Of a stretch of 64,000 bases of DNA, positions 59,623-61,513 are shown piece after piece. The stretch is taken from NCBI GenBank assembly GCA_023703575.1, contig CP097969.1:248001-312000 (forward strand). Reading direction: 5' to 3'. A program made the translations under genes and the position numbers. The DNA is from SAR86 cluster bacterium (lineage in GTDB: Bacteria; Pseudomonadota; Gammaproteobacteria; Magnimaribacterales; Magnimaribacteraceae). The stretch's first letter is position 1. Each line of letters starts with the position of its first letter. The notes beneath the pieces were generated by a model. The model was given only the letters and a program-made list of their open reading frames with translations. It had not been told where the DNA came from and did not search any database.

Positions 59623-59752
59623 ATTTATCTCCTTAAAATTTAATTTCATATTAGACGAATAATGAAAAAGAGGGAAATTCGGAGTAAAAGAAACTTAAAA
59701 ATATATTTAATAAATTTTCTCTTTACTACTATACAAATTATTTATATGTGTA

Positions 59753-59758
59753 TATAAT
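59753..59758 (+). promoter_or_regulatory. -10 box of the structured RNA candidate
   Basis: A perfect TATAAT whose expected start site (about 59765) coincides with the first base of the closing stem of the structured element at 59767. No good -35 hexamer is seen at normal distance; a TTTACT at 59722 is too far. The region is very AT-rich, so chance matches are common, but the placement is telling. Confidence 0.5.
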
Positions 59759-59766
59759 TGTCATCA

Positions 59767-59828
59767 ATATCTAGAGTCGTTTAATTCTCCCCAGAAAAAA
59801 ACCTCTCCAAGGTAAGCAATCTAGATAT
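59767..59828 (+). repeat. Tandem RNA element, copy 1
   Basis: Closed by a perfect 9-bp stem, ATATCTAGA (59767-59775) with TCTAGATAT (59820-59828). The inside contains TAATTCTCCC and ACCTCTCCAAGGTAA, both identical in copy 2. ACCT/AGGT in the second motif can form a small hairpin with loop CTCCA. The closing stem sequence differs completely from that of copy 2 although both pair, which is a covariation-like pattern. Confidence 0.75.
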
Positions 59829-59832
59829 GAAC

Positions 59833-59895
59833 AGTAACTGAGAGACGTGTAATTCTCCCAAGAAAAACCTCTCCAAGGTAACTCACTCAGTTGTT
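59833..59895 (+). repeat. Tandem RNA element, copy 2
   Basis: Closed by a 10-bp stem, AGTAACTGAG (59833-59842) with CTCAGTTGTT ending at 59895; two of the pairs are G-T. The inside repeats TAATTCTCCC and ACCTCTCCAAGGTAA exactly as in copy 1, with one base fewer between them. The two copies are separated by four bases. Confidence 0.75.
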
Positions 59896-59897
59896 TA

Positions 59898-59958
59898 AGT
59901 AAGATGTAGCTGTCACCCATTTTTTAGCTGCACTAGCGAAAATAAGCTGCATCTTACT
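59898..59958 (+). other. 14-bp hairpin between tandem elements and terminator
   Basis: AGTAAGATGTAGCT (59898-59911) pairs with AGCTGCATCTTACT (59945-59958), 13 Watson-Crick pairs plus one T-G pair. The loop contains a third AGCTGC (59926-59931). Because AGCT is self-complementary, the loop copy could pair with either arm, which gives room for alternative folds. Confidence 0.75.
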
Positions 59959-59963
59959 ATCTA

Positions 59964-60031
59964 TGGTAGGTGGGGCTTTAAATTAATTTTTGGTTGGGCG
60001 CAGCAAAAAGTTTCATCTACCACTCTTTTTT
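59964..60031 (+). terminator. Terminator-like hairpin upstream of the metallo-hydrolase gene
   Basis: TGGTAGGTG (59964-59972) pairs with CATCTACCA (60014-60022), including one G-T pair, and is followed by CTC and six T residues (60026-60031). The 41-base loop is long for a simple terminator. If it ends transcription, the RNA is about 265 bases long and the gene at 60104 either depends on read-through or has its own promoter. Confidence 0.5.
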
Positions 60032-60103: not shown

Positions 60104-61513
60104 ATGAGTCTAGAGTTTAAGGTCTTATCCCATGCTTGCCTATTAATAAAATCAGATGATACCTCGATTGTTATTGATCCTTGGCTTTTAGGTTCATGTT
60201 ATTGGCGTTCTTGGTGGAATTTTCCTAAGGCCAAATTTGATGTTCAAGAGATTGAGGAAGTCGACGCTGTTTTGATTTCACATGTTCATTGGGATCATTG
60301 GCACGGGCCCACTTTAAGGAAATATTTTAATGATAAGAGAATAATAATTCCAGATGAACCAGGTTTACGCTCTAGAGGCGATTTGCAACAAATGGGCTTC
60401 AAAACGCAACCAGTTAAACATGGCAAAACCATTCAATTAGGTAGCTTTAAGATTACTTTATACCAGTTTGGTTTGATATTTACAGATGCAGCAATAGTTA
60501 TCGAGGCAAATGGAAAAGTGATCCTGAATGCAAACGATGCAAAAATTGCTGGATTTCCTCTAAGACATATCTTAAAGAGACACGGCAATATAGACTTTGC
60601 CTTTAGGTCTCATTCATCTGCAAACCAGCGTATTTGTTATGAATTAGAAGGAGGAGATTATGCTCAATATGATGATCCTGAACATTACTTTAGGTCATTT
60701 GCACTTTTCATGTCCGCAGTTAAACCAAAATATGCTATTCCTTTTGCCTCTAATCATTGTCATTTACATAAGGAAGTTTTTAAATTCAATTCTTACATTT
60801 CTGATCCTATTGAATTAGAAAAGTATATAGAACAAGCAAACCATAAATATAACTGGGAGTTAAAAGTTATGATGCCCGGATCTAAATGGACTGAAGAGTC
60901 TGGTTTTCATTTAGAAGATCCAATAGAGTTTAAGAATAAGGATATAGCATTGGAAGAATACCAAAATGATGTGAAAGATAAGTTGGAAGCAACTTATGAA
61001 AAGGAAGGCAAGATAGAAATTGATGAACCAACTTGGGATAAATTCAAATTAATGACTCAAACACCTTTTTACAGAAAAGGCCTAGGAAAATTTATGGTTT
61101 CCGTTACAAAACCTGATGGTTCAGGGGGTTCAAAATTGATCCACAAAAATCAAATACAAGATATTAGTTTCACTATGAAAAGTGAATCTGGCATTCCATT
61201 AATAATAATACCAGCTTTAGTCTTTAGAGATTCTGTAAAGAAGAATATGTTTGAGCATGCTGGCATATCAAAAAGATGTAGATTCCTGGCATCTAATGAA
61301 AAGGATATGAAAAGGTTAGTAAGGATAGTCAATCATATTGAGCAGAAAGAAAGATTACCTCTTGCATTAACAGCTAGGCAATTTATGAGATTCCCGATAG
61401 CCTATGTAAGAAGATGGAGAGAATTATTTGTATACCTAGAAGCCTTTTACTTGAGATATTTGAAGAAGTTGCCTCTTTACATCGTAGAAGAAAAAATTCT
61501 AAATAAGACTTGA
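60104..61513 (+). CDS. MBL-fold metallo-hydrolase with a long C-terminal part
   Basis: A 469-residue protein. The N-terminal 240 residues form a metallo-beta-lactamase-type domain: VLSHACLLIKSDDTSIVIDP, then ISHVHWDHWHGPT with the His-x-His-x-Asp-His metal motif (residues 60-65), a later Asp in LNANDAKIAG, and FASNHCHLHKE near the final metal His. The pattern resembles UlaG-like and CMP-sialate-hydroxylase-like hydrolases. The remaining 200 residues have PTWDKFKLMTQTPFYRKGLG and a basic end (FPIAYVRRWRELFVYLEAFY) and no domain I recognise. It lies 72 bases after the terminator-like hairpin of the structured RNA. Reaction unknown. Confidence 0.78.
   Translation: MSLEFKVLSHACLLIKSDDTSIVIDPWLLGSCYWRSWWNFPKAKFDVQEIEEVDAVLISHVHWDHWHGPTLRKYFNDKRIIIPDEPGLRSRGDLQQMGFKTQPVKHGKTIQLGSFKITLYQFGLIFTDAAIVIEANGKVILNANDAKIAGFPLRHILKRHGNIDFAFRSHSSANQRICYELEGGDYAQYDDPEHYFRSFALFMSAVKPKYAIPFASNHCHLHKEVFKFNSYISDPIELEKYIEQANHKYNWELKVMMPGSKWTEESGFHLEDPIEFKNKDIALEEYQNDVKDKLEATYEKEGKIEIDEPTWDKFKLMTQTPFYRKGLGKFMVSVTKPDGSGGSKLIHKNQIQDISFTMKSESGIPLIIIPALVFRDSVKKNMFEHAGISKRCRFLASNEKDMKRLVRIVNHIEQKERLPLALTARQFMRFPIAYVRRWRELFVYLEAFYLRYLKKLPLYIVEEKILNKT

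Follow-up and report, generated by a model that had tools for sequence, protein, structure and literature searches.

The element at positions 59767-60031 on the plus strand of the 64,000-nt stretch of a SAR86 genome analysed here (the window) is a structured RNA beyond chance, as judged from its sequence and that of its relatives, and it recurs in two families of the order. The reading that we favour, with our confidence about evenly divided, is that of a trans-acting small RNA gene whose loops resemble anti-Shine-Dalgarno sequences and which would act without Hfq. Apparently it forms an independent RNA gene in the window's own family (f1) and lies ahead of a photolyase gene in a second family (f3). 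SAR86 bacteria, which are difficult to culture, abound in surface seawater. A conserved structured RNA that has no match in Rfam 15 and offers a few testable candidate targets would show the use of base-pairing RNA in a streamlined bacterium without detectable Hfq, and would represent a tandem anti-Shine-Dalgarno hairpin design outside the Alphaproteobacteria, where the papers cited below describe such a design. A search of the literature on SAR86, small RNAs, CsrA, photolyase and marine structured RNAs, which was not exhaustive, yielded no paper on this RNA, and SAR86 is not mentioned in the accessible part of PMC5069720. Genomes (G), contigs (C), loci (L), genera (g) and families (f) carry our own labels, G000 being the window's genome.

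In the window, all parts of the element lie on the plus strand. A promoter block (59726-59759), conserved in f1, includes TATACA at 59730-59735 and, after 17 nt, the TATAAT (59753-59758) that the original prediction had placed just before the first stem; a promoter scan of the region gave 3 promoter-like sites versus 2.6 in shuffles, thus no excess over chance. The first hairpin unit (59767-59828) is closed by a stem of nine perfect pairs (59767-59775 with 59820-59828) and contains motif A (UUCUCCCCAGAA, 59785-59796), for which a small hairpin with a CCCC loop is possible, and motif B (ACCUCUCCAAGGUAA, 59801-59815), for which the fold ACCU[CUCCA]AGGU is possible. The second unit (59836-59892) has the same loops, and its closing stem (59836-59845 with 59883-59892) forms 9 of 10 pairs (90%), so that of the two stems predicted, at 9 and 10 bp, the first held in full and the second with one pair fewer. 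Identical internal motifs in two adjacent units were likewise predicted, and both the sequence and the alignment of the copies bear this out, with TAATTCTCCC found at 59782-59791 and 59850-59859 and ACCTCTCCAAGGTAA at 59801-59815 and 59867-59881. There follow a middle hairpin (59898-59958) with 14-nt arms (59898-59911 and 59945-59958), which covaries in f1, and a 3' module (59964-60022), backed by pair counts, in which a 15-bp helix (59964-59978 with 60008-60022) encloses the small hairpin GUUG-GGCG-CAGC (59993-60004). At 60020-60031, 3' of the last helix, stands CCACUCUUUUUU, ending in the T-run of 60026-60031; its ACC is mostly conserved and the U-run is not. The long hairpin and the T-ending last hairpin of the original prediction are therefore both present, the T-run being a feature that is not conserved in relatives.

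Two further readings of the element's sequence were rejected. The plus strand holds only short TTG-started frames that touch the 3' end of the element. Some g17 loci and one g13 locus carry short frames across the unit, which relatives, when read by eye, do not keep intact, and a coding reading was discarded. Pairing of the C-rich loops with the 3' GGGCG loop (CCCA with UGGG), assessed by eye, lacks support from covariation and is broken in L091.

The fold of the plus strand was better than that of 200 of 200 shuffles (z -3.24), while a fold as good as that of the minus strand came from 22 of 200 (z -1.17). The 3' helix covaries strongly: all 282 of 282 cells over 19 sequences form standard pairs, two-sided changes occur in 10 of 15 pairs, and neither shuffled nor slid controls come near the true pair count; the alignment used omits g7 (L090) and three g12 sequences (L077-L079), which were badly aligned or one column off in MAFFT. 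The pair table sums to 57 G-U cells among these 282 in the plus sense, with no cell unpaired, and since those 57 would be A-C on the other strand, the RNA is read from the plus strand, the sense that had been predicted and to which the shuffled folds also point. For the whole element, the RNAalifold consensus gave two-sided changes in 15 of 44 pairs, most of them in the middle stem and the 3' helix, in an alignment without the partial sequences L005, L015 and L026, the copy on a second G030 contig (L027) and the divergent L025 (g7).

The unit stems were assessed by swapping arms between units. The MAFFT alignment of units leaves the stems unaligned, for which reason the unit alone has no covariance model of its own. 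Among 15 units of nine genera, picked for variety from 22, the own partner was best in 14, and the true pairing sums to -243.5, compared with -124.6 for the mean and -186.4 for the best permutation, with none of 20,000 permutations as strong. The pattern of paired stems around fixed loops, one of the original observations, thus recurs across genera, the loops being largely kept.

All searches combined place the element in 26 of the 35 genomes of f1 and in 36 of the 40 of f3, a total that includes G076 and G078, found by motif only; many of the genomes behind both counts are incomplete. Close relatives thus retain the element. No credible element was found in 107 f2 and 21 f4 genomes (128 in two other families of the order), where the matches that were read sit in coding frames or are without the motifs and some single motif matches are unread; all seven loci fetched for motif matches in these families (G053, G179, G180, G172, G174, G046 and G199) lie inside long open frames. 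A search at the DNA level recovered the element in 25 of 61 genomes, the own genome included, and the exact f1 motif pair occurs in 20 stretches of the GTDB 220 genomes, all of them SAR86 or Gammaproteobacteria records, and has no match in IMG/VR.

Covariance searches, set out with the original prediction as its check, found homologues. Of 203 genomes of the order, the whole-element model (R1) picked out 37 at E <= 0.01, including 34 at E < 1e-6, and the model restricted to the 3' module (R2) picked out 49 at E <= 0.1, including 48 at E <= 5e-6; searches of more than 40 genomes were run with stricter filters. Both models miss g9 and g17 at the true place, and these genera were recovered by reading upstream of the photolyase gene and by motif. 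Some weak matches were set aside: reading of the loci in G131 (E 0.019) and G140 (E 0.008) led us to regard both as chance, and R1 matches with E 0.0017-0.0053 (G061:C2, G067:C6, G031:C43, G069:C2 and the unread G075:C2) lie off the element. In a sample of 369 genomes of the class, R2 matched only the own genome and, weakly, G353 (E 0.004, 25 bits), which we take as chance as it has no UCUCCC or CUCUCC in the 150 nt before the match; distant forms could escape this class search, given that R2 misses the g9 and g17 forms (G036, included in the sample, gave no match). No Rfam 15 family reaches its threshold in the element, the best match below threshold being His_leader at L151:2064-2197 on the minus strand in g17 (31.8 bits, cut-off 49, E 0.053). 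Contigs C17 and C18 of G030 (L027 and L017) carry near-identical copies of the element, which may be a true duplication or an assembly artefact.

The core common to the members consists of a promoter, one or two hairpin units, a middle hairpin and then the 3' helix, the last absent in g17. Two units occur only in the three f1 genera g1, g4 and g5, and one unit in g2, g7, g9, g12, g13 and g17; a duplicated aptamer, as originally proposed, is for this reason not needed to explain the element, as g2, g7 and four f3 genera have a single unit, and binding of a ligand is possible. The unit loop reads UUCUCCC(C) followed a few bases later by CUCUCC, a pair common to f1 and f3, and these loop motifs persist for the most part, unlike the closing stems, which turn over. 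Exceptions are motif B in unit 1 of L016, L019 and L021 (g4) and in g2, and motif A in unit 1 of L020. Motif B usually lies within ACCU[CUCCA]AGGU in f1 and is open in f3, and the g13 loop is without the small hairpin and retains the CU tracts. The small hairpin of the 3' module has the loop UUGGGC (UUAGGC in L091), and the module usually ends in ACC. In g12 the counterpart of the middle hairpin is a GC-rich hairpin followed by U7, resembling a terminator, and in part of g17 (e.g. L151 and L272) a U-tract comes after the hairpin, as in an intrinsic terminator; f1 members have no clear terminator, the T-run 3' of their last hairpin being unconserved.

The trans-acting small RNA that we favour would work as follows. 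Its own promoter would drive a transcript of roughly 265 nt, or of some 100-200 nt in f3. As the comparison of members shows, its hairpin units, with their variable and compensating stems, display the largely kept CU-rich motifs UUCUCCC and CUCUCC, and in most members the element ends in the covarying 3' module with its UUGGGC loop. Serving as anti-Shine-Dalgarno seeds, of which two units would provide four, the motifs would base-pair at ribosome-binding sites rich in G (GGGGAGA/G, GGGAGAA) and so block translation without Hfq. The loops are complementary to GGGGAGA/GGGAGAA and GGAGAG, that is, to Shine-Dalgarno-like sites, in agreement with the option raised in the original prediction of a small RNA whose UCUCC segments could pair with GGAG. 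Compared with a whole-RNA mean unpaired probability of 0.31-0.46, motif B reaches 0.98-1.0 in f3 folds and the motifs 0.44-0.81 in f1; the seed positions are thus more open than the RNA overall, which we count in favour of base-pairing loops. One point against is the length of the kept loop, which exceeds that of a usual seed and is what one would expect of a protein site.

This length leads to the view of the unit as the site of an RNA-binding protein, which tandem units would sequester in the manner of CsrB or RsmZ, with UCUCC in place of GGA. Such a role would suit the kept loop of about 25-30 nt, nearly identical in both copies and with small internal hairpins possible, and duplication with divergent stems is what multivalent protein binding would lead one to expect. 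We nevertheless hold it to be unlikely, because the g13 loop loses the small hairpin and keeps its CU tracts, a change more in keeping with pairing than with a shaped site, and we know of no bacterial protein that binds UCUCC.

The genes next to the element separate the two families. In the window's genome the next gene is a metallo-hydrolase at 60104 (Pfam Lactamase_B_3), of which the element was originally suggested to be the leader. A metallo-hydrolase follows in 0 of the 13 f1 relatives whose neighbours were read, where the next gene is thioesterase-like in eight, Wzz-like in two (G016 and G007), a 2-hydroxyacid dehydrogenase in G015, an SDR in G024 and a convergent TPP enzyme in g2 (L022); these 13 are a part of f1, and the families rest on Pfam matches of one example each, that of the thioesterase on the window's own copy. 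With a next gene that varies or is convergent, the element is not the leader of a fixed gene in f1, and the suggested link to the metallo-hydrolase falls. In f3, a photolyase-like start comes next on the strand in 34 of 34 loci read, with a Pfam DNA_photolyase match in seven, and where the 3' module is present this start usually lies about 4-12 nt after it. The element is absent upstream of the f1 photolyase genes of G000, G011, G017 and G024. Promoters in f3 share the 28-nt word ATAACT-N14-TATAACYY, with two half-sites about 21 nt apart (e.g. L285 in G039, L280 in G036 and L283 in G060); across 10 f3 genomes this word has 10 occurrences, of which 9 lie at the element, and the reversed control word has 5.

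A cis-acting role in the f3 photolyase leader region is possible, and from it one may construct a history in which the f3 unit with the hairpin that follows is an attenuator or riboswitch of photolyase, from which f1 later made a free RNA. The downstream gene kept throughout the f3 loci, the GC-rich g12 hairpin with U7 and the resemblance of one g17 locus to the Rfam His_leader, below threshold as it is, would all fit such an origin. However, f1 retains all the parts with no photolyase downstream and has a convergent neighbour in g2, a search by eye did not find an antiterminator pairing, and the short frame that some g17 loci and one g13 locus have over the unit is interrupted in other members, all of which leaves this history rather improbable in our estimation.

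For the favoured trans-acting RNA, the number of targets appears to be limited. GGAG precedes 2 of the 62 first-ATG starts in the window, versus 2.8 expected at random places, so that there is no enrichment and targets should be few. Classical use of the Shine-Dalgarno sequence seems weak in the window's genome, as far as these 62 starts indicate. The longer pattern TGGGGAG-N3-9-ATG exceeds its reversed control in five f1 genomes (G000 29 versus 6, G017 16 versus 5, G011 32 versus 8, G026 12 versus 7, G024 25 versus 1; part of the sites are not gene starts), which points to a limited set of genes with such sites. Across G000, CTGGGGAG occurs 19 times, versus 10 for the reversed word, and besides the element it lies just before the start of csrA, of a TonB-dependent receptor (13 matching bases) and of a DUF3604 protein (12 matching bases). 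The start region of the receptor, CTGGGGAGAATTATG (L203 around 1501-1515; G000:C1:753763-753777), includes a 13-nt perfect complement of the loop, and the leader site of the DUF3604 protein is at G000:C1:900629. The mRNAs targeted would thus include csrA in f1 and g13 and, in G000, those of the receptor and the DUF3604 protein.

We turned to csrA on finding CsrA confined to the RNA-bearing families and Hfq undetected. CsrA is present in 27 of 41 genomes of the order, all in f1 and f3, and absent from the 6 f2 and 5 f4 genomes searched, and Hfq was found in 0 of the 41, the same search being positive in 5 of 14 control genomes. Both the RNA and CsrA occur in 20 of these 41 genomes, CsrA only in 7, the RNA only in 1 and neither in 13; shared ancestry may be the cause of this co-occurrence between families. 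In f1, 20 of 22 csrA leaders have CTGGGGAG, which perfectly matches the loop CUCCCCAG, 4-6 nt ahead of the start; in g13 the two leaders have CTGGGGGGAG immediately ahead of the start, and in g2 GGGGGGAAAT stands against the loop AUUUCUCCCC (pairings by eye). The pairing with csrA is stronger than that with all background leaders in G000 (64), G019 (71), G024 (70) and G042 (75), and does not stand out in G036 (g9, 5 of 72 leaders as strong) or G039 (g12, 9 of 75). Composition plays a part, for among 1000 shuffled loops 27-84 attain the energy of the csrA pairing. When six RNAs were crossed with six csrA leaders, the own RNA was the best partner in only one (G039), which gives no sign of co-adaptation within genera. 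From these comparisons csrA emerges as the best-supported single candidate target in f1 and g13, and our hypothesis is that it may be the main target of the RNA.

A narrower proposal is that the RNA serves as a dedicated regulator of csrA, repressing CsrA synthesis by covering its G-rich Shine-Dalgarno site. We consider this doubtful, having slightly lowered an already low estimate because the cross table lacks co-adaptation within genera. If true, it would reverse the familiar Csr arrangement of an RNA sponging the protein, and given the photolyase locus of f3, light or UV stress could set CsrA levels. With csrA as a target in any form, a new layer would be added to the Csr system.

The opposite extreme is a general anti-Shine-Dalgarno RNA without specific targets, lowering translation, for example in stress, via many G-rich sites. 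The motifs are short and repeated, and each of the five f1 genomes has 12-32 TGGGGAG-N3-9-ATG sites, although part of these are not gene starts. Most genes of the window have no GGAG site, which makes a general effect in G000 hardly possible, and we regard this alternative as very unlikely. Still further down, and highly improbable, is a CsrA sponge on the minus strand with GGA in the hairpin loops ACCU[UGGAG]AGGU and UUCU[GGGG]AGAA, for which one may cite 2-8 GGA per element on the minus strand versus 0-4 on the plus strand, a stronger minus fold in 6 of 30 members (all g1) and CsrA in the same families, but against which stand the stronger plus fold in the other 24 of 30, the 57 helix cells that would turn into A-C, and a conserved promoter block that points to the plus strand.

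The trans-acting small RNA can be compared in design with two groups from other bacteria, the alpha-r14 small RNAs of Rhizobiales, for which Rfam presumably holds a model, and the CcsR RNAs of Rhodobacter, to which we take RS0680a to belong. The alpha-r14 RNAs (SmelA075-SmelA099, 'cuckoo') consist of repeated hairpins with the identical anti-Shine-Dalgarno loop CCUCCUCCC and variable stems, vary in module number and have been proposed to block ribosome-binding sites (PMC3927594; part of PMC10746234), and for the CcsR RNAs a role in stress defence is given in part of PMC10253847. Hairpins with kept anti-Shine-Dalgarno-like loops, varying stems and a varying number of units are shared by the SAR86 RNA, unit 1 of g4 and g2 being exceptions. 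It differs from alpha-r14 in having UUCUCCC and CUCUCC, two motifs per hairpin, with CCUCCUCCC absent from the element, in the extra covarying 3' module, in the bacterial class and in the single locus per genome in nearly all cases. By motif and Rfam match it is not a member of alpha-r14 or cuckoo, and the resemblance is one of design.

With the CsrB, CsrC and RsmX-Z sponges the RNA shares several similar hairpins in one molecule and, over the 41 genomes, the same two families as CsrA. A sponge for CsrA on the plus strand was rejected, since Csr small RNAs have 9-25 GGA each (part of PMC11882849) whereas the 30 members have 0-4 and their motif is the complement. Tandem riboswitches are alike in the duplicated module, the kept loops with variable stems and, in f3, the hairpin and gene that follow, and unlike in that f1 has no fixed downstream gene, no riboswitch family reaches its threshold and the CU-tract loops are partly or wholly open. 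6S RNA is also structured and of similar size, but occupies a separate locus in G000 (C1:83083-83260); its model has no match in the element and finds 39 of 41 genomes at E <= 0.001, 32 of them over the cut-off. As a minor observation on the 3' module (window 60008-60024 and f3 loci), ACCA usually follows the helix outside g1, reminiscent of how a tRNA acceptor stem ends.
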